Source: Pseudomonadota bacterium (GTDB lineage Bacteria > Myxococcota_A > UBA796 > GCA-2862545). Taken from it: DNA of 43,531 bases. A program made the position numbers and the translations under genes. Where the stretch lies: contig JAGSGY010000046.1 in the NCBI GenBank assembly GCA_023954855.1, positions 1 to 43,531 on the forward strand, read 5' to 3'. The stretch's first letter is position 1. Every line of letters begins with the position of its first letter. The notes beneath the pieces are model-generated. The model was given only the letters and a program-made list of their open reading frames with translations, had not been told where the DNA came from and did not search any database. Shown here in pieces: positions 16,236-42,872 of this stretch.

Positions 16236-16799
16236 ATGATCCTCTTTCTCGCCATGACCGCCCTCGCCGAGCCTGGAGCCACCACCTCCGAGGCCTACGT
16301 TCCTCGTCCGCTCGCTGGGCGGCCGGTGCTCGATCTGCGGATTGGCGCAGACACGGTGTCGTCACTGGACTCACCGGTGTTCTGTCTCGAGGGCTACCCG
16401 CTCAAGTGGCTCACCATCGAGGGCTGCGGCACCGGAGCGGGCCTCTGGCACACGCCGACGGGACCCGAGCTGTCGCACTACCGCACGCGAGTGCGTGCGC
16501 TACACTCGGACAATGGCCGCGTCGACGCAGAGCTTTTGGCGGGCGTCGGCTTTGCAGAGTTGCAGATGGGGCCCGATCGGACAGGGTTTCTGTTTGGTCA
16601 GCCGCGTGAAGAGGGCCAGAACGAGGCCGCAGGTGCCGAGGCATCGCTGTCGGGCAAGGTGCGGGTCTGGGTGGACCGAGCCTACGTCGTCTTCGACGTC
16701 AATGCGGGTGCTGCCGTCATCCCCGCCGCGCCGGTGGTGGCCGGAGCGACCGGTCCCATCGTGGGCTTTGGTGGGCTGTCAGTCGGGGCCGGCTTCTAG
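16236..16799 (+). CDS. Exported protein, probably small outer-membrane barrel
   Basis: 187 aa from ATG 16236; GTG 16230 would add Met-Arg. MILFLAMTALA then EPGATT is a very short signal peptide. The body is beta-rich with two cysteines (VFCLEGYP, IEGCGTG), and the C-terminal end GPIVGFGGLSVGAGF closes with phenylalanine, as in outer-membrane barrels. No Shine-Dalgarno is visible; TTATCT (16224-16229) ends 6 nt before the ATG. The last 21 nt overlap the convergent kinase gene. Confidence 0.65.
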   Translation: MILFLAMTALAEPGATTSEAYVPRPLAGRPVLDLRIGADTVSSLDSPVFCLEGYPLKWLTIEGCGTGAGLWHTPTGPELSHYRTRVRALHSDNGRVDAELLAGVGFAELQMGPDRTGFLFGQPREEGQNEAAGAEASLSGKVRVWVDRAYVVFDVNAGAAVIPAAPVVAGATGPIVGFGGLSVGAGF

Positions 16800-19736
16800 C
16801 TCGGGTGTGAACGCCAGGGTGTCGAGAATGTGGTTCCAGGGCTCACGGTAGAGGCCTCGCTGGCCCGCTGGGGCCGAGAAGAACACCTGCAGTTCGCGGT
16901 CGCCGATGCTGACTCGATGGAACTCGAGGTAGAAGGTGCTCGTACCCTTCGAGACCGTGACCGCGCGGACTTCCGACGGAGCGCCGAGAACGACCCTGCC
17001 GGAGGCCTCGGTCTCAGTCAGCTCGTCGGGTGGCTCGCCGAGCCACTCGGCAAGGGTGGTCTCGCTGAAGGCCGCGACCGAGCGCTCGTGGGCGCCGGGC
17101 ACGTTGATGTAGGCCTGGATCTGGACCTGGCTATCCGCCCGGGCCTCGGTGGTGACGGTGATCAGTCGTCCCTCGCCGACGGGGAAGCTTCCGGCCTTCG
17201 GGTACCAGTTGGCGGGCCGCTCGAAGCTCAAACCCTCGTCGCTCCAGGGTGATGATGGGGCGGGGGCAGTCACGGCGCCGGGGTCCCCAAAGGGCAGGGC
17301 GAGACGCGTCTGGACGTACGCACCGTCGCGCAGAACGGTGACTGCCAGGGTGGTTCCTGGGCGCACACAGCCGGAGAGGGCGCAGCCCTCGTCGTCGCCG
17401 CATCGGCAGGCTTGCAGTTGGCCGAGCAGGTCACGTACGCCGGCGACGGGCCGGTCCTCGAGCGAGAAGATCAAGTCGCCCGCGCGAAGCTCACTTGCGC
17501 CGGGGTCGACCACCGTCGCGCCCGCTTGGCCTTCGACCGTGCCCAGAGATGCGGGAAGGCCGGCCTTACGCACGTCGGCTACCGCGGCCTCGAGGGACTC
17601 GCGTTCGGAGTCAGACAGGCGCATGCCGAGCAGGCGGTCGGCCTCTTCATCCAGGAAGGCCGGCAAGATGGTCGAGGACAGGGCGGTGAGGGAGTTGTCC
17701 GAGCTGTACTTGCTGGCGAGCAGCGGAAGCAGCAAGGCGACCAACAGGCCGGCTTCCTTGACCCATGCGAGCTTGCGCGGCCTGCCGACACCGAGGAACG
17801 GGATTGCGCTCGCGAGCAGGGCAGTACTGCCCCACATCAGCACGGTATCGATGCGGGTATCCGCGAAGGCCGCCGAGAAGCCCTCGGCCGCTGCCAATCG
17901 GTCGGCTGGCGCGCCGCTGACCGCCGAGAATAAGAATGTGAGTTCTTGAAGGAACACGACCTTGGCCGCAGAGAGGACGCCAAGGGTGGCGCCGAGCCCC
18001 ACCAACAGGCGTGTGCGCGACAAGCGCGGGTCTGCGTCGGGGGCGGGAAACGCGATGGCGGCTGCCGAAAGCCCACATGCGAAGAGCATGGCGAAGACCA
18101 CAAACGAGCCGGGTCCATCGGTCTGGCCGAGGGTGGTGAGCCACAGCGCGGTGCTTCCCAACCCCGCTACCCCGGCCGTGGCCAGACGACGGGGGCTGGC
18201 GAGGGCGCCGAACCGTGGCGACAAGCGGAACACGGCGATCAGCGCCGCGCCATCGGCGACCGCGAGCAACACGAAGGTCGTGAGTGCCATCGCCGCCATC
18301 TCGGCCGCGAGTGCCTCGGATTGGCCCGTTGCTGCGAGTAAGGCGCGCTCCGCTACCGATGCCTGCTCCACCTGAACCAGCGCGTCCGAAGCAAGCTTGG
18401 CGCTGATGATATTCCCCATGACGGCCACGAGCGTGGGGGCTACCAACCAAGGGGCGACGCTTCCGGGTAGACGCTGCGAGAACGCGCCGACCGCGGCGAT
18501 GCCCAGGAGGGACACCGCGACCATCGGCCAGACGTAGGGTGCCGCGAGTACCGCGCTCAACGTGCCGAAGACGACGACCAGCGTGCCAAGTAAGAACGGG
18601 GCTGCCGTGATCATGGCGCCGAGAGAGGCGAGGGTAATCTCGCGTGCCCCGACCTCGGGTGGCGCCTCGGTGGGCGCGAGGGAGCTCGCCTCCGAGAAGT
18701 TCATGTGGCGCGGCTGTGCAGGCCCAGGCGTGAACTCGAGGGAGACGGCGAAGGTCGGCTCGCCGGTCGGGGCATGGGCCCCAGACAGCGACTCGTCGGT
18801 GGGGGCCAGTTGCTCCGCGGAGCGCAAGATCTCTTCCGTCCACGCATCGCCTGGTGTGGAGACCAGCGGGTCACTGCGCAGTCCCTCGGCCTCGCCCGCC
18901 CACAAGGCGAGCAGGGCAGCCGCGTCGGCCGGACGGTCGTCGACGTCGACCCGAAGGGCCTCTTCGATGGCGCGGACCATGCGCTCTGGAACGTCGGGTG
19001 CGAGCGCGCGGGGATTCTCGAAGCGTCCTTCACAGATGTTCGAGAAGATCTCCATCTTGTCGGGGCCATCAAAGGCCAGGCGCCCGGTCACTAGCTGAAA
19101 GAGGATGGCGCCGAGCGAGAACACGTCCGCGCGCTGGTCCACGTGCGCGGCGTCCCGAATCTGCTCCGGGGCCATGTACGAGGGGGTTCCGAGGCCCACT
19201 CCGGTTCGCGTCTCGTGGCGTCCGGTGGGGCCCTCCATGATCTTCGCGAGGCCGAAGTCGGTGATCTTCGGGTGCAGCACACCGTCGGCGATCGCGAGCA
19301 GGATGTTGCCGGGCTTGAGGTCGCGGTGAATCAGGCCATGGCGGTGGGCGAAGGCGGCTCCGCGCAGGATCCCGCGGGCCAGCTCGTCGGCCTGGGCCAA
19401 GCTCGGTCGGCGGGACGAGAGCAGCTGAGCGAGGCTCGGTCCCCGCACGTACTCGAGCACCAGGGCGGGCATGCCGTCGACCTGCACCAGGTCGGTGACC
19501 GCGACGATGTGGCTGTGACGCATCGCCCCCTGCACGCGGCCCTCTTGGAGCAGACGCTCGCGAATCGACGGCGTGAGGATCTGCAGCACCTTGAGGGCGT
19601 GGAGGCTGCCGATCTGGTTGTGTCGCGCCAGGTAGACCGTCGCCATTCCACCCGAACCGAGGACTCCCTCGATCGTGTAGCGCTCCACGACAGTGCCGGT
19701 CTGGAGCTGCAGCGTGCGGCCTCCTGTGCGGATCAT
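16779..19736 (-). CDS. Membrane Ser/Thr protein kinase with polytopic region and PDZ-like domain
   Basis: 985 aa. Residues 20-280 are a complete Hanks-type kinase: glycine loop GSGGMATVY (28-35), K49, HRDLKPGN (137-144), DFG (160-162), APE (189-191). A Pro/Thr-rich linker leads to about eight to ten membrane helices between 370 and 650, then a PDZ-like domain (about 745-830, RAGDLIFSLEDRPV) containing a four-cysteine cluster (777, 779, 785, 790), and a 150-aa C-terminal domain. Topology suggests a cytoplasmic kinase sensing with the outside part. The start is unsure: the ATG at 19736 lies within GGCTATGAT, which looks like an extended -10, while AGGAGG (19725-19720) follows it, before CTG 19712 and GTG 19688. 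Confidence 0.9.
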   Translation of the reverse strand: MIRTGGRTLQLQTGTVVERYTIEGVLGSGGMATVYLARHNQIGSLHALKVLQILTPSIRERLLQEGRVQGAMRHSHIVAVTDLVQVDGMPALVLEYVRGPSLAQLLSSRRPSLAQADELARGILRGAAFAHRHGLIHRDLKPGNILLAIADGVLHPKITDFGLAKIMEGPTGRHETRTGVGLGTPSYMAPEQIRDAAHVDQRADVFSLGAILFQLVTGRLAFDGPDKMEIFSNICEGRFENPRALAPDVPERMVRAIEEALRVDVDDRPADAAALLALWAGEAEGLRSDPLVSTPGDAWTEEILRSAEQLAPTDESLSGAHAPTGEPTFAVSLEFTPGPAQPRHMNFSEASSLAPTEAPPEVGAREITLASLGAMITAAPFLLGTLVVVFGTLSAVLAAPYVWPMVAVSLLGIAAVGAFSQRLPGSVAPWLVAPTLVAVMGNIISAKLASDALVQVEQASVAERALLAATGQSEALAAEMAAMALTTFVLLAVADGAALIAVFRLSPRFGALASPRRLATAGVAGLGSTALWLTTLGQTDGPGSFVVFAMLFACGLSAAAIAFPAPDADPRLSRTRLLVGLGATLGVLSAAKVVFLQELTFLFSAVSGAPADRLAAAEGFSAAFADTRIDTVLMWGSTALLASAIPFLGVGRPRKLAWVKEAGLLVALLLPLLASKYSSDNSLTALSSTILPAFLDEEADRLLGMRLSDSERESLEAAVADVRKAGLPASLGTVEGQAGATVVDPGASELRAGDLIFSLEDRPVAGVRDLLGQLQACRCGDDEGCALSGCVRPGTTLAVTVLRDGAYVQTRLALPFGDPGAVTAPAPSSPWSDEGLSFERPANWYPKAGSFPVGEGRLITVTTEARADSQVQIQAYINVPGAHERSVAAFSETTLAEWLGEPPDELTETEASGRVVLGAPSEVRAVTVSKGTSTFYLEFHRVSIGDRELQVFFSAPAGQRGLYREPWNHILDTLAFTPELEAGPD

Positions 19737-20777: not shown

Positions 20778-20825
20778 ATGAGTGAGACGGATCGCACAGT
20801 GCTTCCGATCGAGGCGAGCCCATGA
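20778..20825 (+). CDS. 15-codon leader ORF, coupled to lipoprotein gene
   Basis: MSETDRTVLPIEASP, ATG 20778 to TGA 20825. GGAG (20768-20771) stands 6 nt before it, and its stop overlaps the ATG of the lipoprotein (ATGA, 20822-20825). It may set the translation rate of the gene behind it; it may also be chance. TACGCT at 20744-20749 could be its -10. Confidence 0.3.
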   Translation: MSETDRTVLPIEASP

Positions 20826-21241
20826 GCCGGTGGTGGATCGCGGGTCTGGTTGTGCTGACAGGCTGCTTTGTCCGTCCCATGGATGACGGTGTGTTTTTCG
20901 TCGAGACCGGCGGTGCGCAGTGTTGGAGGTCGAGCTCTGCGAGCGGACTCGTTCGGCTGCTCAAGTCCGATGTTCAGGTGGTTCTCACCGCAAGTGAGCC
21001 CTCGGCCTACACCTTCAACGAGGTCCTGCTCGTCTCGGGTGGGACGATGGTGGAAGAGACCATATCCGAGGCTGAAGCCGTCCTCCGGGTCACCCCCGAG
21101 GCCGAGACGACGCCGGTCGTGATCACCGCCCAGCTCCACTGCGCATCACAGTGGGGCGACACCGCATCCCCACCGCTTCGCTTCGAGATCCTCGCCTCGA
21201 CGCTGTCGGAGGAATGGTCGATCACGTCCCCCGAGTTCTAG
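20822..21241 (+). CDS. Small lipoprotein of unknown function
   Basis: 139 aa. MSRWWIAGLVVLTGC is a short lipoprotein signal, lipobox LTGC with C15. The rest is beta-rich (VQVVLTASEPSAYTFNEVLLV, TTPVVITAQLHC) with two more cysteines (QCWRSS, LHCASQW) likely joined as a disulfide. It precedes and overlaps by 28 nt the RND-like gene, so it may belong to the same envelope complex. No family recognised. Confidence 0.75.
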   Translation: MSRWWIAGLVVLTGCFVRPMDDGVFFVETGGAQCWRSSSASGLVRLLKSDVQVVLTASEPSAYTFNEVLLVSGGTMVEETISEAEAVLRVTPEAETTPVVITAQLHCASQWGDTASPPLRFEILASTLSEEWSITSPEF

Positions 21242-22668
21242 CCTCCCGTGGACTCTCGATCCTAGGTGCGCTGTCGGTGCTTGCGGTGTCGCTGGGCTGT
21301 GGAGCATTGCCTGGCCGTGACGTAGCGGTGGAGGCTCCGCCTTTCGTGCTGGTGCTCGATGTGGAGGCTCCGGGGCGAAGCGCTGCCGAGGTGGACGAGC
21401 AGCTTGCGATTCCACTAGTCACGGCGGTCGCCGGTCTTCCGGGTCTTCGGCGTACGACGGCGCATTCTCGGGAGGGGCAGACTGAGATCACGCTCGTGTT
21501 CGAGGATGACCCCGAGTGGAACAGCCGCAGACGTATGGCTGTGCTCACCGATGTGTCCGACGTGCAGCTCATCGACGGGGCTGTGGTATCGCTTCGGCCG
21601 GTCATCACCACCGTGTCGGTGGTCCCAGTCGAAGGGCCGCCGGATGCAGAGAGTCTCGAGGCAAAGCGCCGCGAACTCGAGCGTGTGCCTGGGGTGGCCG
21701 AGGTCGAGTTCGTCGGTTTGAGCGTGCCGAAGATCACCCTTCGCTACGACCCCGCCAAGCTCGCGGCCTTCGACGTGGCGGTATCCGACCTCCGTGAGGC
21801 GCTTCAGCCTCCGGGCGTGGGCCTTCGCCGCCGTGCCCATGTGCTCGAGGAGTTGCTCGATGCACGGGTCGGCAAGGCCACGCTGCGCGATGTGGTGGAT
21901 GCGACCCTGGACGTGGAGCGGACTCGAGCCGAGCTGGACGGTGAGGCGGCAGCGTGGCTGGTGGTGAAGGGGACCGAGCTCCCTGAGGGTGCGCTTCCCA
22001 CTGCGAGCATGCGCGTGGACACCGTGACCTCGGGTGTGGCCATTGCTGGCGTGTTGCGAGATGCGGGCGCGGACTCAGTGCGCTGGATCGAGCGCGACGG
22101 CACGACGACGGCTTGGGCCACGGGCTCGCCGAAGGTCTCGGACCTGAGGGCCAAGGAGCAAGGACGGGTGCGTGCGGACGACGTGCGCACGTGGGCCATT
22201 GACGTTCCGCCCGACTCGGCGTGCACCGAGCTCCTCGCTGAGCGCATCGCCGAGGAGGCGGTGTGGGTTGTTCCGTCCAAGGCCACCCCCTCGGTCGACG
22301 TGCGTCCCCACCGCGAGCGCCTGGCCCAGATGGGCATCACGGCTCAGGAAGTGTCTTCGGCGGTCCGGGATGCCAGGGTCCCCATCGACGCGGGCTGGGT
22401 CATCGCCGATGGGCAGGAGGTGCCCCTTGTGCTTCAGAGCGCGCAACACTCTCTCGACGACCTTGCCTCCACGCGAGTGGGGCCGGTCACCCTCGCCGAC
22501 GTCGCCACGATTGAGGTGGTCCACCAGTCGCCGATCTGGCGCGTCAACGGCATGGAAGCCGAGCGCACGATCGCCGACTTTCCCGCCGATCTCGATGTCG
22601 AGATGACCTTCGGCACGATGTCCTGCGCGATGGTTTCGGTGAGCGAGCAGCACGAGGACTGGCGCTAG
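21214..22668 (+). CDS. RND-transporter relative lacking the transmembrane bundles
   Basis: 484 aa from ATG 21214, which overlaps the lipoprotein gene. The N-terminus (residues 1-30) is a single hydrophobic segment ending in SLGC; it is either a poor lipobox or an uncleaved anchor, and resembles the first helix of CzcA/AcrB pumps. Residues 44-250 follow the N-terminal periplasmic half of RND pumps (VLVLDVEAPGRSAAEVDEQL, VAGLPGLRR, ERVPGVAEVEFVG, KITLRYDPAKLAAFDVAVSD); residues 325-440 follow the C-terminal half (PSVDVRPHRERLAQMGITAQ, VTLADVATIE). The two helix bundles that bring proton coupling should lie between and after them and are absent. A pump function is therefore unlikely; a periplasmic adaptor or binding role is possible. 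Confidence 0.7.
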   Translation: MVDHVPRVLASRGLSILGALSVLAVSLGCGALPGRDVAVEAPPFVLVLDVEAPGRSAAEVDEQLAIPLVTAVAGLPGLRRTTAHSREGQTEITLVFEDDPEWNSRRRMAVLTDVSDVQLIDGAVVSLRPVITTVSVVPVEGPPDAESLEAKRRELERVPGVAEVEFVGLSVPKITLRYDPAKLAAFDVAVSDLREALQPPGVGLRRRAHVLEELLDARVGKATLRDVVDATLDVERTRAELDGEAAAWLVVKGTELPEGALPTASMRVDTVTSGVAIAGVLRDAGADSVRWIERDGTTTAWATGSPKVSDLRAKEQGRVRADDVRTWAIDVPPDSACTELLAERIAEEAVWVVPSKATPSVDVRPHRERLAQMGITAQEVSSAVRDARVPIDAGWVIADGQEVPLVLQSAQHSLDDLASTRVGPVTLADVATIEVVHQSPIWRVNGMEAERTIADFPADLDVEMTFGTMSCAMVSVSEQHEDWR

Positions 22669-22735: not shown

Positions 22736-25120
22736 ATGCTCGTTCTCGCTCTCTCACTCGCGTACGCCGGTGGCTACGAAAACCCACCCGAGGCGATGGC
22801 ATCGATTCTCGACGCCTCACGTCCGCCCGCGGTGTCGATGAGCCCCGACAACACGATGATGGCGCTGTTCGACCGGCCCCAACTCGCGCCGATCTCGGAG
22901 CTTGCCGAGCCCGTAGTTCGCGTGGCGGGACTTCAGCTGAATCCGAAGACGCGGGCTCGGGCTCGTGCCTACACCTACCGGGGACTGTCGCTGAAGCCGC
23001 TCGATCGCTCGGATCCAGAGACGGTCGAACTGCCCGAAGGCGCGCGCATCTCGAACGTGAGCTGGTCGCCCGACTCCTCGCATCTGGCGCTCACGCTCAC
23101 CGAGCCCGGAGGCTTGTCGTTGTGGACGGTGGAGCTGGCGAGCGGAGAAGCGGTCCGCCGTACCGAGGCTGAGCTCAACGCCACCGCAGGTGCGCCGTGC
23201 AGCTGGTTGCCCAACTCGACGGGCCTGGTCTGCAAGGTCGTTCCGGGAGAGCTGGAGGCGATGCCCGAGGAGTCGGCGGTGCCGACGGGCCCGCGCATCG
23301 ATGAGAACCTCGGACGCAAGACCCCCGCGCGAACCTACGCAAACCTGCTGTCCTCACCGCACGATGAGGCCGTGTTTGCCTGGCTGCTGACGGCGTCCGT
23401 CGACCAAATCAACCTCGACGGTACGCGCAAGCGCATCGCTGAGCCGGCGTTGATCGACACCGCGGATGTCTCCCCAGACGGCTCGCACATGCTGCTGTCG
23501 ACGCTGCATCCGCCGTTCTCGTACCACGTGCCGGCCAATCGCTTTCCCGTGCGCTGGGAGCTGCTCGACCTTGCGGAAGGCTCGCGCAAGCAGCTGGTGG
23601 ACCTGCCGCTCGCCGATGCGATTCCCGTCGCGTTCGGCTCGGTTCGTGAGGGGCCGCGCTTCTATGCTTGGCGTCCAGATCAGGCGCAGACCTACTACTG
23701 GGTCGAAGCGCTCGATGGGGGCGATGCGGGGGTCGAGGCCAGTGAGCGCGATGCCGTCTATCAGCAGACCGTGGGTGCGGAACCCACCCTGGTCTGGAAG
23801 ACCGCCCTCCGCTTTAGCGGTATTGCCTGGGGCGATGACTCGAGGGCCCTGGCCTCCGAGTGGTGGTGGCAGACGCGCACCGAGCGGAGCTTCCGCATCG
23901 ACCCGAGTGTGGAGGGCGGCGCTCCAGCCATGCTCTGGGAGCGCAACTACCAAGATGCCTACGTCGACCCGGGCAGTCCGGTCACCGAGACCGGTCCCTT
24001 CGGACGTCAGGTGCTGCGGATTGCCGAGCACGACATGATCTTCATGACTGGAAAGGGCGCTTCCGAGGAGGGCGTGTACCCGTTCCTCGATCGACTCTGG
24101 CTCGAGGATGGCACCACCGAGCGTCTCTGGCGGTCATCTGGCGAGAGCTACGAGACGGTGGTGGACGTGCTCGACGATCAGGCGCGGCAGATGGTGACCC
24201 GGCGTGAGTCGAAGAGCGAGCCGCCCAACTACTTCCTCAAGAAGAACCGGCGTCGGAACAGCCCGCTGACCGACTTTGAGGACTGGGCGCCGGCCTTCGA
24301 AGACATGCACAAGGAGATCGTTACCTACACCCGCGACGATGGTCTGGAGCTGTCCGCGACCCTGTACCTGCCACCAGGATACGACAAGTCGGATGGGCCG
24401 CTTCCGACGGTGCTCTGGGCCTATCCACGTGAGTTCAAGGACCGCAAGAGCGCGTCGCGGGTGACCAAGTCGGAGTACCGCTTCTCTCGCCCTGGCGGCA
24501 GCTCTGTGCGCATGCTGCTGCTCGAGGGCTACGCGGTGCTCGACGGTCCGAAAATCCCGATCATCGGCGAGGGCGACAGCGAGCCGAATGACCAGTACGT
24601 GGAGCAGCTGGTCTCGGGAGCGAAGGCGGCGGTGGACTACCTCGTTGAACGCGGTGTGTCGGACCCCGAGCGCATGGCGATTGGTGGGCACTCCTACGGT
24701 GCGTTCACGACCGCCAATCTGCTGGCGCATTCGGATCTGTTCCGGGCCGGCATCGCCCGCAGCGGCGCCTACAACCGGTCCCTCACGCCGTTCGGTTTTC
24801 AGTCTGAGCAGCGCACGTACTGGGAGGCGACCGACACCTACATCGAGATGAGTCCGTTCTCGCACGTCGAGAAGATCGACGAGCCGATTCTGCTTCTTCA
24901 CGGGCAGAAGGACAGCAACTCCGGCACCTACCCGGTGCAGTCCGAGCGGATGTTCGAGGCGCTCAAGGGCGTCGGAGGCACGGTGCGCTGGGTGGAGCTG
25001 CCGCTCGAGGACCACGGCTACCGGGCCCGCGAGAGCGTGGGGCACACGCTCTGGGAGATGCTCACCTGGCTCGACACCTACGTGAAGAATGCCGAGCCTC
25101 GAGGGACGTCCGCGGAATGA
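22736..25120 (+). CDS. Exported S9-family prolyl-oligopeptidase-like serine peptidase
   Basis: 794 aa; GGAGG at 22727-22731 supports ATG 22736. MLVLALSLAYA then GGYENP is a short signal peptide. The first 500 residues are a beta-propeller (WSPDSSHLALTL, VSPDGSHMLL, IAWGDDSRALAS); the last 270 an alpha/beta hydrolase with nucleophile S653 in GGHSYGAF, D726 in LLHGQKDSNSG and H760 in EDHGYR. GHSYGAF with LYLPPGYD and VLWAYPREF suggests the glutamyl-endopeptidase-like S9D group. It probably degrades peptides in the periplasm or medium. All catalytic residues are present. Confidence 0.88.
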   Translation: MLVLALSLAYAGGYENPPEAMASILDASRPPAVSMSPDNTMMALFDRPQLAPISELAEPVVRVAGLQLNPKTRARARAYTYRGLSLKPLDRSDPETVELPEGARISNVSWSPDSSHLALTLTEPGGLSLWTVELASGEAVRRTEAELNATAGAPCSWLPNSTGLVCKVVPGELEAMPEESAVPTGPRIDENLGRKTPARTYANLLSSPHDEAVFAWLLTASVDQINLDGTRKRIAEPALIDTADVSPDGSHMLLSTLHPPFSYHVPANRFPVRWELLDLAEGSRKQLVDLPLADAIPVAFGSVREGPRFYAWRPDQAQTYYWVEALDGGDAGVEASERDAVYQQTVGAEPTLVWKTALRFSGIAWGDDSRALASEWWWQTRTERSFRIDPSVEGGAPAMLWERNYQDAYVDPGSPVTETGPFGRQVLRIAEHDMIFMTGKGASEEGVYPFLDRLWLEDGTTERLWRSSGESYETVVDVLDDQARQMVTRRESKSEPPNYFLKKNRRRNSPLTDFEDWAPAFEDMHKEIVTYTRDDGLELSATLYLPPGYDKSDGPLPTVLWAYPREFKDRKSASRVTKSEYRFSRPGGSSVRMLLLEGYAVLDGPKIPIIGEGDSEPNDQYVEQLVSGAKAAVDYLVERGVSDPERMAIGGHSYGAFTTANLLAHSDLFRAGIARSGAYNRSLTPFGFQSEQRTYWEATDTYIEMSPFSHVEKIDEPILLLHGQKDSNSGTYPVQSERMFEALKGVGGTVRWVELPLEDHGYRARESVGHTLWEMLTWLDTYVKNAEPRGTSAE

Positions 25121-30281: not shown

Positions 30282-32543
30282 TCAGGCCGAGAGCGGCTCG
30301 TCGGTGCAGACTCTAAAGCCGACGAAGCTGTAGCGGAAGTCCGCCTGGATGCCCGAGCGGCAGGCACAACGACAGTCGTCTTGGTCGTCTCCCCAGGTTC
30401 CGCCGCGAATCACCAGCTGGCCCTCGTCGTACATCGAGGAGGTCCACTCGCGCATGCCGCCAGCGGTGTCTCGGAGTCCGTACACGCTCTCGTCGATAGG
30501 GTAGTCATCGACCTTCCACGGCCTCGGCGCGCCGGGCTTGGACTGACGCATGTGCGCATAGGTCGGGTCGAAGCCGGGGCCCCAGGGAAAGGAGCGGCCG
30601 TCAACGCCGCGCGAGGACTTCTCCCACTCCTCTTCGGTGGGCAGTCGGATGCGGCGGCCTTCCTTAACGGAGCGCCAGGCGCAGTAGGCCTCGATGTCGG
30701 CCAGGTGGACTGCGAATGCGGGCCAGTCCGGGTCCCAGCCGGGTGGCAGCTGCCAGACCCCGTCGACGTACTGCCAGTACGTGGCGCCCTGTCCGAAGAA
30801 GCCGGCCTCGCCAGGGGCGTGGGCGCGACCGGTCTCCTCGTCGAGGTCGTTGAGAAAGGCCAGGTACTGCCTGGAGGTCACGCAGGTTCGCCCGATGAAC
30901 AGGTCGATGATGTACGGCTCGCAAGGCTCCAGCGGCTGGCGTGCCTTCGGATCGCCACCCATCAAGAACGACCCGGCGGGCACATGCACCATGCCTTCGC
31001 CGATGGCGTCATCCGTGAAGAGCGTGAGGTGTCCGACGTGGAGGGCGCCCCGCTCCAGCAGGACCGCGTAGGGCGTGTCCCGGCGACCGGGTGCGGACAC
31101 GGTGATGCGGTAGCTGCCGGGTGGCAGGGCATGCTGATCGATCGGCAGCGCGAGAGTCTCGACGAGCTCCGGGACCAGGCGGCGCTCGAAGTCGACGTAG
31201 CGCTCGACCTTCGCGGTAGCCTCGGGGTGGTCACAGGTGAGCGAAAGCGATGCAGGCGCGTCGAGCATCGCGGTGTACGGGCCGTCGGCGTCCCACTTGC
31301 GTACGCGGTGCGACGAAACGGCCGCGAAGATCGGCTCCTTCTGCTCTTCTGCTCGACGCATGCGGGCCCACCACAGCTCGGCGAGCAGGCCATGGGCGCG
31401 ACCGTCGCCGGAGAGCGTCGACGCGAGGGTGGCCGCCTCGGCCGCCTCCATCCACAGCTGCTCTTGTTGAAGCTCGAGGGCAGTGGCTCGGTCCTTTGCC
31501 ATCCACCCTGGACGCTTCTGGGCGATGGAGGCGTGGCCCGGGATCTTAGCGATCAGCACGCCAGCCGCGCGTAGCTCGGCCTCGCGGCGGGTCGAGAGGT
31601 CGCGCAACCTCGCCATGTCCGCGCGCACGCCGGTGAGCAGGCGTTCGGCCTCATGGGCTCGTCGGGTTCGGGTGGCCTGTCCGGTGAGGATGCGCTGGAG
31701 CTTGGCGGTCCAGGTCTGGATGTCGTCGCGGTCCGTGCTGAGGCCGCTGGCGAGCCAGGCATCGATGGCGGGGTCGATGTCGACGTGCACGCCGACCGCC
31801 TCGATGGGCGTGTCCCTCCAGCGAGCGATGTAGCTTCCGAGGGGCTCGTCGGTTCGGCGCGGGCGCAGGCGACGCAGCGTGAGCAGCTCCCAGGCCATCG
31901 CGGCGAGCGCATACACGTCAGCGGCCTTGCTCGCGGACTCTCCGTGCAGGCACTCAGGTGCGGCATAGCCCGGGTGTCCGGTGAAGCCGGCCTTACTGTG
32001 GAGGCCGGACCAGTCGAGGAGGTAGGGCTCTCCGGCTTCACCCACGCCGACATTGGCCGGGTGTACATCGCCGTGGATCAGGTCGCGCTCATGGGCTGCA
32101 CCGACGGCGCCGCAGAGCGCGTGGATCAGCTGCAGGCGACGTTCGATGGGCCAGGTGCTGTGGGCGCGAACCCACTGCGTCCACAGCGCGTCGAGGGTCT
32201 GGGCTGGCGCGAGGCGGTACTCGACGCAGAGCAGACCCTGGGCGGCGGTCACGCGGTGCACGGGCAACACGGCAGGGTGTGAGAGCGATGCGGTGAGCTG
32301 GGCTTCCTTGAGCAGCATCTCACGGGCTTCGGAGCCGCCGTCTGGGTTCGAGACCTTCACCGCAACGATGCGGTCGAGGACGGGATCCTTGGCACGAAAG
32401 ACCGTACCGGTCGCGCCGCGTCCGAGCACCCCGAGTGGCTCGAGGCCGAGGTCCATCGGCAGCTGTGCTTCGTCGACGGTGTGACCGCCGGAGCGGCCGG
32501 TCCCGGGGACGAGCTGATCGAGCATGTCTTCGAAGCTACTCAT
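30282..32543 (-). CDS. Atypical Ser/Thr kinase fused to SUMF1 (FGE-sulfatase) domain
   Basis: 753 aa, soluble. Kinase domain at 30-290: GRGATGTVF (41-49), K63, then HGDVHPAN (157-164) in place of HRDxKxxN and DWS (177-179) in place of DFG; the catalytic Asp, Asn and metal Asp are kept. Residues 290-450 are helical, then a PEGA-like beta segment (HALPPGSYRITVSAPGRR), and from about 515 to 750 a formylglycine-generating-enzyme/SUMF1 domain (VHVPAGSFLMGGD, LPTEEEWEKSSRG, IRGGTWGDD, VGFRVC). The second catalytic cysteine position of FGE is probably Asp, so the SUMF1 part may bind rather than modify. It overlaps the activator gene by 8 nt and probably sends it signals. Confidence 0.88.
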   Translation of the reverse strand: MSSFEDMLDQLVPGTGRSGGHTVDEAQLPMDLGLEPLGVLGRGATGTVFRAKDPVLDRIVAVKVSNPDGGSEAREMLLKEAQLTASLSHPAVLPVHRVTAAQGLLCVEYRLAPAQTLDALWTQWVRAHSTWPIERRLQLIHALCGAVGAAHERDLIHGDVHPANVGVGEAGEPYLLDWSGLHSKAGFTGHPGYAAPECLHGESASKAADVYALAAMAWELLTLRRLRPRRTDEPLGSYIARWRDTPIEAVGVHVDIDPAIDAWLASGLSTDRDDIQTWTAKLQRILTGQATRTRRAHEAERLLTGVRADMARLRDLSTRREAELRAAGVLIAKIPGHASIAQKRPGWMAKDRATALELQQEQLWMEAAEAATLASTLSGDGRAHGLLAELWWARMRRAEEQKEPIFAAVSSHRVRKWDADGPYTAMLDAPASLSLTCDHPEATAKVERYVDFERRLVPELVETLALPIDQHALPPGSYRITVSAPGRRDTPYAVLLERGALHVGHLTLFTDDAIGEGMVHVPAGSFLMGGDPKARQPLEPCEPYIIDLFIGRTCVTSRQYLAFLNDLDEETGRAHAPGEAGFFGQGATYWQYVDGVWQLPPGWDPDWPAFAVHLADIEAYCAWRSVKEGRRIRLPTEEEWEKSSRGVDGRSFPWGPGFDPTYAHMRQSKPGAPRPWKVDDYPIDESVYGLRDTAGGMREWTSSMYDEGQLVIRGGTWGDDQDDCRCACRSGIQADFRYSFVGFRVCTDEPLSA

Positions 32544-37824: not shown

Positions 37825-40800
37825 TCAGGACGTGAGGCGCTGAGCGATGATCATCCGCGCGAGGTCCTCGAAGTGGATGTGGTCGTCTCGCCAGAGTGCG
37901 ACCTGTCTTGCGCACTCGAGCAGCAGCATCTCGAAGACGCGCGGCTCGGTGTGAGCCAATCGAACGGCCGCGCTGCCACTGCGGTTCAGTGTGACGGCGA
38001 CACGCAGACTCGTCGACTCATAGGGACGCACCGCGACGTGGCCGCTGTTCAGCTCCGCGAAGTTGACGTCGACCCAGACGTCCTCAGAGAGGGCTGAGAG
38101 AGCGGTCCTCAGGCGCCGCGCGATGCGGTCCGAGACATCATCGAGCTCGATGAGCTCCACCTCGCCCTCGTGTGCGGGCTCGTAGAAGCGAGCCCAGGTC
38201 GCTGGCAGCAGCGGGCGCCTGTCCGGCTCGGCATCGAGCCAGCGCTCGAGGCTTCCCCAGCGAACGCCATCCGCATCGAGGACGTCCACGTGGGCTGCGA
38301 GCTCTCGGGCCGTTCCACTCGGAAGCGCTCCCTTGCGGGCAGCAGTGAGCAGTGCGTACGAGGCGGCGTAGCCCTGAGCGGTCGTGCGCGCGAGACCGAC
38401 CAGATCGGCGTCGAGCATCTCGAGGAGGCGCTGGTAGAGCTGGATCGCGCCCAAGCGCACAAGCTCGATCTGTGCGCTCTGCAGGCCGGTCGAGGTGCTG
38501 CGTGCCCAGAGGAGGCCATGGCAAGGGGCCTGCCGATCGACTTCGCCGAGCGAGAGGAGGTTGCGGCTCGTCTCGACCAAGATGGCGGCGGTTGGGTCGT
38601 AGGGAAAGCGCAGACCGAGCCAGCCCTCGACACCTGGGACGCGGATCTCGTGGCGGATCAACCAGCCCTCGCCGTCTTCGGTGAGGTCATGCCATACCGA
38701 GGCTGGGTCGTCGAAGCGGAGGGTCACGGGTCCGCGCGAGCGCTCGAGGCTGCAGAGCTCGTCGTAGGTCATGGCGACGGTCTCGTGTTCGGTCACCTGC
38801 GGTCCGTGCAGCGGGGCCACGGCGAGCCGTGGGCCGAGCTTGTCGATGTCGACGTGCTCTCCACTCGTCGCGTGAATGCGCAGGGGAATTTCGCTCTTCT
38901 CGGCGAGGCGGAACAGCGCCAGACGCAGCATCGCGTGCGCCCGCCGGGTGCGAAGACCCTCGGGAAGCTTGGCCGGGTTCTCTTCCGAGAACGATGCGAG
39001 CAGCTGCCCCAGACCCTTGAGACCTTCGGTGAGGTCCTCGTTCTCGAAGCCCTCCTGGGCCCAGGCTTCGATGGGGGAGAGTGTGGCGATTCGGGTCCAG
39101 CCGGCATCCGGCGTGGGCGTGTCCAGGCCGTCGCGTAGGCCGATCAGCACGCGGGGCTCACTCTTCAGGTCATGCCGGACCCGCAGCCAGCCTCGGTTTG
39201 ACAGACCGACCGCGACGAGGGGGAACGCACCCCGCTTCGGATGAGCGAGATGGCCATAGCCAAAGGCCTCTTCCAGTGCGCTAAGTTCGTCGAACTCGGT
39301 GGCGTCCTCGATGACGGCGATCTGGCCCGAGTTCAGTAGCCCTAGGAAGCTCTGCAGCGTCAGCGGACCCTCGGTGGTCATCGCCAGCGTCGCGTCGCGG
39401 AGGCTTCGGCGTGCTGCACCCCAGTCGCTGGGAAGCACCGCATCTACGGTCTTATCACCGGCGTTCTCGACGAAGGTGGGGCGGGCGTGCAGTGCGAGTA
39501 CGGATCGAAGCAGGCTGCGCGTGGCCGTGTCCTTTGCGTCGTGGGACAGCAGGCGCCAGGATTCGCCGAGGGCGTGCCGAACCAGGGCCACGTCGAGGTC
39601 GTCCACGTCGGGCGCCTCATCGAACTCGGCGATCAGCGACAGGGGCCCCAGCTCGAGGGGAAGTCGCAGGGTGCGAGCGGTGTCGCCTCCGACCCGGATG
39701 AGGGTGGGCACGCCTGGTCCCGTTCCCCAGTGCGGAGGGGTGCCCTCGACATGGAGACGTAGGGTCAGGCGACCATCCTGGCCGGCCACGGTGATGGGGG
39801 CGATGGCTTCACGCGACTCGGCGCGGCGCGAGAGAATTCGGTTCACGAAGCCAAAGTCTGCGGTGGTCGCCATGCGGGACAGGGCGATGGGCGCGTCGGT
39901 CTCGGAGAGCCAGATCGACTCGCCTTCGCTCAGCAGCAGTACGTGGAACGGGAAGTCGAGCGGATCGCCCGCGGGCTCGAGCTCTTCGGCCTGGTCGGGA
40001 CTGACCCAGAACACTGGGCTTCCTGGTGGCAGGTCGTCGAGCTGCTCCAGTCGGATCGGCGCCCGCGAGCTGCAGAGCTGGGGGATGGCGGCCTCGATCG
40101 GGACCGGGGCCGGCCGGGTAGGACCGGTGGGTGTGGGAAGCTCGGGATCGGGCTCCCGAATTTCGGGCATCGGAGGCAGTGCGGGTGGGCGGTAGCCGCG
40201 GCCGTGGACCTGACGCATCAGGGTGTTGGCTTCGGGCTGAACCGCGTGCAGCATGCGCACCCACCGCTCGTCGCGGACGATGTCCGACATGTCCGCGGTC
40301 TTGCGCAGGCCGTTGTCGGCGATCACGCCGCCGAGGGAGTTGCCGAGTACCTTGAGCTCGTCGGTTCCAATCCACACGCCGCCGACGACGATGCGAAACT
40401 CGGGTCGCACACCTTGTCGCACCACACCGATGGCTCCGCGACGGTCTCCCTGGTCGAGGGAAGCGGCGCGGGTCACGCCGAACAGCTGGATGGCGCGGCT
40501 GGATCGGTAGCCGAACGGGGCGCTGCCGTTGAGCAAGATCGGCACGGGCGTGTAGAGGCAGCGCTCTTCGATGAGCCGGCTCTCTCCGCTGGTTCCGGAC
40601 TTGAAGAAGCGCTCCCACCAGCCGCTGTAGAACTCGACGTACAGGTAGGTTCCGCCGAGACCCTCGGAGGGCTGGCCGACCTGGACTTGCCCCTTGCTGT
40701 CGAGCTCCATGCGCGCGGTGCCGTCGAGGGTGCCGTCCCCGCTCTCGATGCGCACGACGTTCGGCTTACGCTGGTAGATGGCATTCAGACCGACGGCGAG

Positions 40801-41118
40801 CTGCATCAGATGCCGTCGCTTCAGGTCGGCCTGGTCGACGAACAGGTAGTCGAAGATGTTCTCGAGCGAGGCGCTCGTGAGAGGTTCGCCGCCGACCCAG
40901 CCGACGAGCACGCCATCGTCCCGCACATCGATGGCGATCCACGTCGCTCCCGCAAACACCGCGGCCTGCACGAGCTCGAGGATGTACTGACGAGGGTGCC
41001 GCAGCGCGAACTCGCGCATCTTCTCGATGGCTTTGTGCCGTGCGAGGGTGAAGCGCTTTCGGGTGACGAAGGTGCCGGGTGACCGGCTTCGAGCGAGCAG
41101 CGCGTCGAGCTGGCTCAT
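37825..41118 (-). CDS. GHKL/HSP90-fold protein with degenerate ATP site
   Basis: 1097 aa from ATG 41118-41116, in ATGA overlap with the upstream HSP90-like gene. Residues 40-125 line up with the ATPase domain of that neighbour: ELVQAAVFAGATWIAIDV (48-) against ELVQNSLDAGSPRVDIWL, and LMQLAVGLNAIYQRKPNVVRIESG against IGKFGIGFTSIFAIQPDAVLLRTG. The N-box Asn is Ala52, the N-box Asp is Phe55, and the G1 Asp-Gly loop is lost (DDGVLVGWVGGEPL), so ATP hydrolysis looks impossible. The remaining 950 residues are mixed alpha/beta without known domain. The frame's extension to 41343 overlaps the neighbour and is rejected. Confidence 0.75.
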   Translation of the reverse strand: MSQLDALLARSRSPGTFVTRKRFTLARHKAIEKMREFALRHPRQYILELVQAAVFAGATWIAIDVRDDGVLVGWVGGEPLTSASLENIFDYLFVDQADLKRRHLMQLAVGLNAIYQRKPNVVRIESGDGTLDGTARMELDSKGQVQVGQPSEGLGGTYLYVEFYSGWWERFFKSGTSGESRLIEERCLYTPVPILLNGSAPFGYRSSRAIQLFGVTRAASLDQGDRRGAIGVVRQGVRPEFRIVVGGVWIGTDELKVLGNSLGGVIADNGLRKTADMSDIVRDERWVRMLHAVQPEANTLMRQVHGRGYRPPALPPMPEIREPDPELPTPTGPTRPAPVPIEAAIPQLCSSRAPIRLEQLDDLPPGSPVFWVSPDQAEELEPAGDPLDFPFHVLLLSEGESIWLSETDAPIALSRMATTADFGFVNRILSRRAESREAIAPITVAGQDGRLTLRLHVEGTPPHWGTGPGVPTLIRVGGDTARTLRLPLELGPLSLIAEFDEAPDVDDLDVALVRHALGESWRLLSHDAKDTATRSLLRSVLALHARPTFVENAGDKTVDAVLPSDWGAARRSLRDATLAMTTEGPLTLQSFLGLLNSGQIAVIEDATEFDELSALEEAFGYGHLAHPKRGAFPLVAVGLSNRGWLRVRHDLKSEPRVLIGLRDGLDTPTPDAGWTRIATLSPIEAWAQEGFENEDLTEGLKGLGQLLASFSEENPAKLPEGLRTRRAHAMLRLALFRLAEKSEIPLRIHATSGEHVDIDKLGPRLAVAPLHGPQVTEHETVAMTYDELCSLERSRGPVTLRFDDPASVWHDLTEDGEGWLIRHEIRVPGVEGWLGLRFPYDPTAAILVETSRNLLSLGEVDRQAPCHGLLWARSTSTGLQSAQIELVRLGAIQLYQRLLEMLDADLVGLARTTAQGYAASYALLTAARKGALPSGTARELAAHVDVLDADGVRWGSLERWLDAEPDRRPLLPATWARFYEPAHEGEVELIELDDVSDRIARRLRTALSALSEDVWVDVNFAELNSGHVAVRPYESTSLRVAVTLNRSGSAAVRLAHTEPRVFEMLLLECARQVALWRDDHIHFEDLARMIIAQRLTS

Positions 41119-42872
41119 GGGCTCACCTCCTCGTTCTCGTAGGTCGCGACAACGAGGTCCAGCAGGGCGTCGTAGGGTGGAGCGGCACGATTCCCGTCGG
41201 CGATCAACAGGGCTTGTGCGAGTGCGAAGGCCGCCACCGGCAGGTCTTCGGATGCGGCGATCACGAGCGCTCGGAACAGGTCGTGGTGACGGTTCACGAG
41301 CATGCACCGTCGGCGCCTTGTGAAGCTTGGCATCGAGAGCCAAGGGTCATCGGCGAGCGCGAACAGGCCGCCGTTCTCGGGTCCTTCGAGGGCGAGGACA
41401 TCTTGGGGCGCTGCACCCGACCCGCCGAAATCGCCGAGTCGGACCGTGAGCGACTTCGGCAGCGTCTTGTCGATCAGGCGCATGGCCGAGTCGAGGAGTC
41501 GACGTTCTCGGGAGGTGAGCTCGTCGCGCTCGAGCAGGTCCGGGAGCATGAACCGGTCATCGGCCGGAACGAAGGTCCGAGGCGGCCTGAAGTACTCGAT
41601 CATGCTGTGCCGCGGGAAGGACCGTAGAAGAAGCTCGGTCTCAGGCTCGAGGTCGAGGAGGTGGAGTCCTGTGGCGACCAGTTCGGCGGCAAGTCGCTCG
41701 CTCTTGGGAACCAACAGCAGCGCACCGAGGGTGTTCTCCTGCTCCTCGAGCTTGCGGAGGGTGAGGGGGTTGCCCTTCGCGTCTCGAAACAGGGGCAGGT
41801 CTAGGCGCCGGACCAGGAGCTCACGGCCGTGTACCCGCACATCGTTGGCCAGGTGACGATGCCAAGGGCCGAGGGGTTCGCCGGCCTCTGAGGCCTGGGC
41901 GATGCGCTCGAAGAGCTTGTCGCGCAAGGTGGTGGCGTGCGCACGCAGACGGCCCATCACCCGGTTGTACTGGCCATCCTGGAGCACGTTGTCACGGGTG
42001 AGCGTGTGCTCGAGGGCGTTGCACTTCACCTTGAAGGCCAGGTGAGCCAGGTCCCGATAGTTGCCCAAGACGTCGGGGTTGGTGGAGTTCACCAGGGTCA
42101 GGCCGCCATTGTAGAAGCCGTAGCGGGGCCGATCCGGATAGCCGATGCCGACGAGCAGGTCCTCTTCCTCGAGCTTGAGCGCAAGTGCGGAGTCGCCCAG
42201 GGCAAGCGGACTGTTCACGGTCTCGCGGGTGGTCTGCTCGACGGCCTCGAAGGCCGCGAACGGGTCGGCGGCCGCGGTGACCTGAGATGGCGCGCGGGTG
42301 GCGGTGCGGTCGTCGAAGGTGATGGGATGGTCGCTGTGTTCACACCAGTAGCTGAGGACCCACCGGGCCTCACGCACGAAGGCCTCGACGCGGTCGGAAG
42401 GCATGTGCTTGTAGAGCGTGATCTGCGTCCCGCTCACGGGCTCCTGGATGCGAACTTTGTCGAAGGAGCGGTCGGCGTGGAACAGCAGCTCCCAAGACTC
42501 GCCATGGCGGCCGGTGCGGAGCAGCACCGCGTCAGGCTGGATGGCGAAGATCGAGGTGAAGCCGATGCCGAACTTGCCGATCTTGGTGAGGTCGTCTTCC
42601 TTGTTCGACGAGAACAGCCGCGTCAGCTGGTTGTCGAGGATGGTCTCGTCCATGCCGTCGCCGTAGTCGTCGACGTGAATCGACAACACACCGTCAGCGC
42701 CTGCCGACTCTGGAGGGCTGTACTCGAGCCAGATGTCGACGCGGGGCGACCCGGCATCAAGGCTGTTCTGGACGAGCTCTCGAAGAAAGTCCAAGGGGCG
42801 CGCGAACTGGTTCACCAGGTTGCTGAGCGCCTGTTCGGCGAGGTCCTCGCCCCCATATTCAAGCTGCGACAT
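41115..42872 (-). CDS. HSP90-like GHKL ATPase
   Basis: 585 aa. The N-terminal domain is a complete HSP90/GHKL ATP site: N-box RELVQNSLDAG with N36 and D39, G1 DDYGDGM (68-74), lid region SSNKEDDLTKIGKFGIGFTSIF (G2, G99/G102/G104) and GTQITLY. The middle and C-terminal parts (230-585) do not resemble HtpG beyond the fold's second domain, and the length is shorter than HtpG. Such stand-alone HSP90-like ATPases are found in uncharacterised and some defence-type gene pairs. It is coupled to the degenerate GHKL gene by ATGA, so the two products probably form a complex. No Shine-Dalgarno of note; TAGACT (42912-42907) may be a -10. Confidence 0.88.
   Translation of the reverse strand: MSQLEYGGEDLAEQALSNLVNQFARPLDFLRELVQNSLDAGSPRVDIWLEYSPPESAGADGVLSIHVDDYGDGMDETILDNQLTRLFSSNKEDDLTKIGKFGIGFTSIFAIQPDAVLLRTGRHGESWELLFHADRSFDKVRIQEPVSGTQITLYKHMPSDRVEAFVREARWVLSYWCEHSDHPITFDDRTATRAPSQVTAAADPFAAFEAVEQTTRETVNSPLALGDSALALKLEEEDLLVGIGYPDRPRYGFYNGGLTLVNSTNPDVLGNYRDLAHLAFKVKCNALEHTLTRDNVLQDGQYNRVMGRLRAHATTLRDKLFERIAQASEAGEPLGPWHRHLANDVRVHGRELLVRRLDLPLFRDAKGNPLTLRKLEEQENTLGALLLVPKSERLAAELVATGLHLLDLEPETELLLRSFPRHSMIEYFRPPRTFVPADDRFMLPDLLERDELTSRERRLLDSAMRLIDKTLPKSLTVRLGDFGGSGAAPQDVLALEGPENGGLFALADDPWLSMPSFTRRRRCMLVNRHHDLFRALVIAASEDLPVAAFALAQALLIADGNRAAPPYDALLDLVVATYENEEVSP

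Follow-up and report, generated by a model that had tools for sequence, protein, structure and literature searches.

RND pumps have been described as machines driven by protons, with membrane bundles and a periplasmic body belonging together, and a proton relay in TM4 and TM10 drives transport. The window analyzed here, a 43,531-nucleotide stretch of DNA, contains a gene for what appears to be such a body with no bundles attached. This raises the question of whether the encoded protein (here called the RND body) is a working product and, if so, what it does. A preliminary description had reported the open reading frame and a set of RND-like peptides within it; the frame proved to be real, and every quoted peptide is present in its translation (Table 1). 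The reading favored here, with a probability of about one-half, is that the RND body is a non-pumping periplasmic protein, exported or anchored at its N terminus, and probably engaged in binding or docking.

Table 1. The RND-body gene, its parts, and adjacent genes, with coordinates in the window and residue numbers in the RND body
Feature	Residues	Coordinates	Strand	Basis or remarks
TPR protein with C-terminal membrane segment		19693..20736	+	Pfam; block with lipoprotein conserved in sister genome
Small lipoprotein gene, lipobox LTGC		20822..21241	+	Upstream; 28-nt overlap with RND body
RND-body gene		21214..22668	+	484 aa; ATG start, TAG stop
Sole strongly hydrophobic segment, former TM1	8-34	21235..21315	+	Hydropathy; helix 12-29 in model
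PN1-like porter subdomain, beta-alpha-beta-beta-alpha-beta	40-132	21331..21609	+	Pfam, profile; pLDDT mostly 80-95
First part of PN2, terminating in RYDPAKLAAFDVAVSDLREAL	133-199	21610..21810	+	Pfam, profile, model
Shortened docking domain and start of PN2 second part	200-258	21811..21987	+	Alignments; model blocks 211-230, pLDDT 86-91
PC1-like beta-alpha-beta-beta, in the position of TM2-TM7	262-305	21997..22128	+	Model, pLDDT ~45-71; low to moderate confidence
PC2-like stretch, low confidence	316-355	22159..22278	+	Alignment; low pLDDT
Second docking unit (DC-like, with DN similarity too)	356-447	22279..22554	+	Profiles, shuffles, VIA-align
Tail, ending about where TM8 would start	448-484	22555..22665	+	Alignment; inference
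S9 prolyl-oligopeptidase-like gene		22736..25120	+	68 bp downstream of RND body; Pfam

The First Periplasmic Half and Its Docking Hairpin

Pfam assigned the RND body to ACR_tran (PF00873) with an E value of 1.7e-21, a match that passes the curated cut-off, and its best stretch, residues 41-198, falls in the RND porter of residues 41-199. The best NCBIfam match was the CusA/CzcA subfamily, and a PDB sequence search ranked CusA and ZneA first. A profile built from the N-loops of 13 pumps matched residues 47-199 with 71 bits. Superposition of the modeled PN1 on MexY 37-133 with VIA-align gave a Z score of 14.4 and an rmsd of 1.6 Å over 92 residues. AlphaFold confidence was high for residues 44-130, fair to high for parts of 145-234 and 360-437, and low elsewhere, with poor models over residues 240-355 and 440-484 (mean pLDDT of the two models, 63.5 and 59.2). 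The preliminary description had anticipated PN/PC-like alpha-beta subdomains, and a PN1-like one was indeed predicted with high confidence; PC1 and PC2 were weakly modeled.

In the first docking domain, the alignments showed an inter-subunit hairpin about 20 residues shorter than that of pumps. This hairpin links the protomers in AcrB-type trimers, so its shortening makes a stable trimer less likely for the RND body. The earlier suggestion of a trimeric periplasmic adaptor lacks specific support, on this and two further grounds. No match to the HlyD/MFP adaptor family was found (Pfam at E <= 1 returned ACR_tran only, and NCBIfam returned RND pump models), and no adaptor (MFP) or outer-membrane factor gene was seen among the neighbors examined (kinase, TPR, lipoprotein, S9 peptidase, and others). 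The short hairpin and the lack of such neighbors also count against an alternative in which a trimerizing docking body replaces or caps a pump between its adaptor and outer-membrane channel. Such a part in a tripartite complex would make use of the docking folds kept in the RND body, and the several full RND pumps of the genome could supply its partners. In addition, AcrBper, an engineered soluble loop fusion of AcrB, folds, trimerizes, and binds drugs without a membrane domain (PMC8617272). On balance, a tripartite role is considered unlikely.

The Second Periplasmic Half

Pieces of both periplasmic halves had been claimed, and here the outcome was divided. Two RND-homologous segments are present, as supported by profiles and shuffles, and the assignment of the second docking unit to the N or C half is ambiguous. 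The N-loop profile matched residues 358-447 with 27-31 bits, and the C-loop profile matched the same stretch with 19-23 bits. In a shuffle test, the real second half scored 30.1 bits with the N profile and 21.9 bits with the C profile, against 8.2 and 11.9 bits for the best of about 1000 shuffles; the real scores lie far above these maxima, so the RND match is not due to chance. HME-only profiles favored the C-loop over the N-loop for this stretch (14.0 versus 7.8 bits; the maxima among shuffles were 8.3 and 9.4). The second docking unit is about equally similar to AcrB 183-271, from the N-half, and to 4k0j 706-795, from the C-half of a ZneA-type pump. VIA-align superposed it on RND docking domains with Z scores of 6.5-6.9 over ~70-86 residues; Z scores under 8 carry little weight by themselves, so these were read together with the sequence match. 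Judged by sequence, the RND homology of this stretch is firm and its N- or C-half origin is ambiguous, "both halves" being the natural reading. The PC1-like region gave no sequence match of its own in the pump-loop profile search.

Absence of the Membrane Bundles

Whole-protein MAFFT alignment with full pumps misplaced the second half on TM helices, and the halves were therefore aligned and modeled separately. The resulting domain order is a TM1-like segment, PN1, the first part of PN2, the shortened docking domain, the start of the second part of PN2, a PC1-like and a PC2-like region, and a full second docking unit. The halves comprise ~220 residues each, compared with ~290-310 in pumps (profile lengths), and no hydrophobic stretch separates them. 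PF00873 matched the locus only twice, both times over a short stretch. Instead of twelve TM helices in two bundles, hydropathy analysis gave one hydrophobic segment. TM2-TM7 and everything from TM8 onward are absent, and with them the TM4 and TM10 helices bearing the proton-relay residues. Lacking the relay, the RND body cannot drive transport. Its proposed origin from an RND pump by loss of the helix bundles is backed by the sequence profiles, the AlphaFold models, and the structure matches.

The single N-terminal hydrophobic segment noted earlier was recovered as the only one. The Kyte-Doolittle maximum of 2.11 falls within it, and the runner-up (1.61 at residues 119-137) is modeled mostly as strands. 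This former TM1 presumably directs export today, either as a signal anchor or as a signal peptide; signal peptidase I may cleave near residue 31. By the usual lipobox rule, [LVI][ASTVI][GAS]C, the RND body is not a lipoprotein; the residues leading up to its cysteine read AVSLGC, which puts S at position -3 and L at position -2.

Coding Signals and Divergence

The 484-codon frame contains no internal stops. Its third-position G+C (0.79; neighboring genes, 0.77-0.88) and its codon score (0.219; neighboring genes, 0.20-0.42) are typical of the surroundings, and the two other forward frames at the locus score below 0. In a simple model of neutral drift to 38% identity, about seven stops accumulated and the frame stayed open in ~1% of runs; the nearest pumps are in fact 23-37% identical to the RND body. 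Divergence from pump constraint is strong. The N part departs from 28 of 51 pump-conserved columns (55%), compared with a median of 6% in a leave-one-out test of the pumps, and the C part, where the alignment is less certain, departs from 24 of 31 (77%; left-out median, 4%). These lost columns suggest that the RND body ceased to be a pump long ago. The combination of an open frame, normal codon usage, and strong divergence argues that the deletion is not recent and also that the gene has not been dead for long. It is no proof of present function: part of the divergence could date from the time as a pump, and the frame may have been kept open mostly during that stage. Scans for a promoter and a terminator gave no signal above chance.

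The main rival explanation is that deletions stripped a pump gene of its membrane parts and left it to decay by drift, without a function though perhaps still translated. Drift over 484 codons would be expected to introduce several stops or frameshifts where none is found, and the normal codon usage also counts against it. Moreover, the removal of all TM bundles with retention of both periplasmic halves should be a rare product of random deletions. Decay would nevertheless fit the disappearance of most pump-conserved residues, the large low-confidence parts of the model, and two results detailed below, namely the restriction of the RND body to one of the genomes searched and its location at a synteny breakpoint. 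We consider it a serious contender, with the odds somewhat against it; if it is correct, the locus represents ordinary gene decay.

Search for Relatives

Besides the RND-body locus, the genome encodes six full or nearly full RND pumps, and the best paralogs are 26-34% identical to the RND body. Together with the lost conserved columns, these identities make recent truncation of a resident pump unlikely. The same values bear on the possibility of an artefact, in which the true locus encodes a full pump whose helices were lost in assembly or sequencing. The genome is a draft in 178 contigs, which would fit such an error; however, the genome holds no near-identical pump, the retained parts have diverged far beyond those of every pump in the comparison, and the error would have to comprise several in-frame losses, each separate from the others. 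The preliminary description had named close relatives with the full-length pump as the sign of a sequencing deletion, and no such relative was found with a full pump at this place. An artefact is very improbable.

No ortholog and no protein of this architecture turned up in the genus's one other genome, in 58 relatives, in 71 genomes of the class, or in samples of 379 genomes of the phylum and 318 of a neighboring class, with 4-5 candidates per genome scored in these larger samples. The homologs with the same deletion and the same lipoprotein neighbor that had been proposed as a check were not encountered in the genomes searched. A GTDB pattern scan with the RND-body protein gave no match, and the 80 best loci from a GTDB profile scan each proved to be a pump, either full-length or truncated at the edge of its contig. 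Viral, phage, and plasmid collections yielded no relative or CusA/CzcA-type pumps only, and PHROGs and PADLOC gave no informative match. No natural RND protein without TM helices was found in the part of the published literature covered.

The following candidates were rejected. The sole shorter closed frame among the 80 best GTDB relatives (L127, 856 aa) is still pump-sized. A 482-aa ORF at the same place after the lipoproteins in the sister genome is a shadow ORF, the real gene there encoding a radical SAM protein. A match with a 252-aa frame (G010) is unrelated, and one with a 780-aa frame (G326) is a full HME pump cut by a contig end.

Comparison with Known Systems and Proposed Role

The RND body shares the PN1, PN2, and docking folds and the TM1-like start with HME-type pumps (CusA/CzcA/ZneA; TIGR00914, PF00873), to which it is up to 37% identical over approximately residues 21-201. 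Unlike these pumps, it has no TM2-TM12 and no proton relay, its docking hairpin is shortened, and adaptor and channel genes were not seen nearby. Its nearest analogue is AcrBper, in which the periplasmic loops are likewise joined directly and the membrane bundles are absent; AcrBper structures were among the top fold matches of the modeled RND body. Whereas AcrBper is man-made, trimeric, and 572-589 residues long in the structures listed, the RND body is natural, shorter (~220 aa per half), and highly divergent, and it retains the TM1-like segment. The AcrD periplasmic construct 4R86 (304-residue chain, Salmonella) is also a periplasmic RND fragment without a membrane part, and it matched PN1 of the RND body with a Z score of 13.8 over 90 residues. 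We take 4R86 to be a crystallized piece of the full AcrD pump, not a natural stand-alone gene.

For the favored binding or docking protein, the following course is proposed. The ancestor, an RND pump gene with its closest affinity to the HME (CusA/CzcA-like) branch of the superfamily, would have lost TM2-TM7 and everything from TM8 in frame, which would have joined the two periplasmic loops into one chain behind the old TM1. That segment would lead the protein into the periplasm as a signal anchor or signal peptide. There, its role would be passive: the porter cleft may bind a ligand (a metal or small molecule), or the docking domains may touch a partner, perhaps an adaptor that serves one of the full pumps in the cell. 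The substrate-carrier role suggested in the preliminary description is possible. We infer both the retention of the gene by selection and its binding or docking job. Weighing against this reading are the failure to find an ortholog in any genome searched, the poorly modeled stretches of the protein, and the lack of a conserved partner gene at its side. The fuller claim, that this is a natural, selected RND protein without TM helices, evolution's own porter-docking fusion used for periplasmic binding or docking, is given slightly less than an even chance. A natural body of this kind would mean that porter and docking folds have uses of their own, in binding proteins or in modulators of pump docking; it would also supply, ready-made, a soluble model for the periplasmic portion of RND pumps.

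Genomic Context

The reported overlap with the upstream lipoprotein gene was borne out, and its 28 nt would allow coupled translation. The TPR-lipoprotein block is conserved in the sister genome, where two further lipoprotein copies and a radical SAM gene follow it; the S9 peptidase homolog (77% identical) lies on another contig beside other genes. The block and the S9 gene are thus apart in that genome, which places the RND body at a synteny breakpoint. Sister-genome homologs of the lipoprotein occur without any RND body, so the lipoprotein is not its conserved partner, and the sister-genome comparison revealed no conserved functional partner beside the RND body.

The lipoprotein family (window 20822-21241) is itself expanded in the sister genome (G001), with three tandem copies (L046 15939-17175) and two elsewhere (34-48% identical); little or nothing of it was seen in other genera.

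Other Genes in the Window

A gene for a 985-aa Ser/Thr kinase adjoins the TPR-lipoprotein block at 16779-19736 (-); the protein contains a membrane part of several helices and has a long C-terminal region. At 37825-42872 (-), a 1172-aa ORF without a Pfam match overlaps a 585-aa ORF that has a HATPase/Sacsin-like domain and a weak PADLOC match to TmtA; the overlap is long, so the start of one of the two probably lies elsewhere. A 753-aa protein encoded at 30282-32543 (-) combines a protein kinase domain with an FGE-sulfatase (sulfatase-modifying factor) domain.
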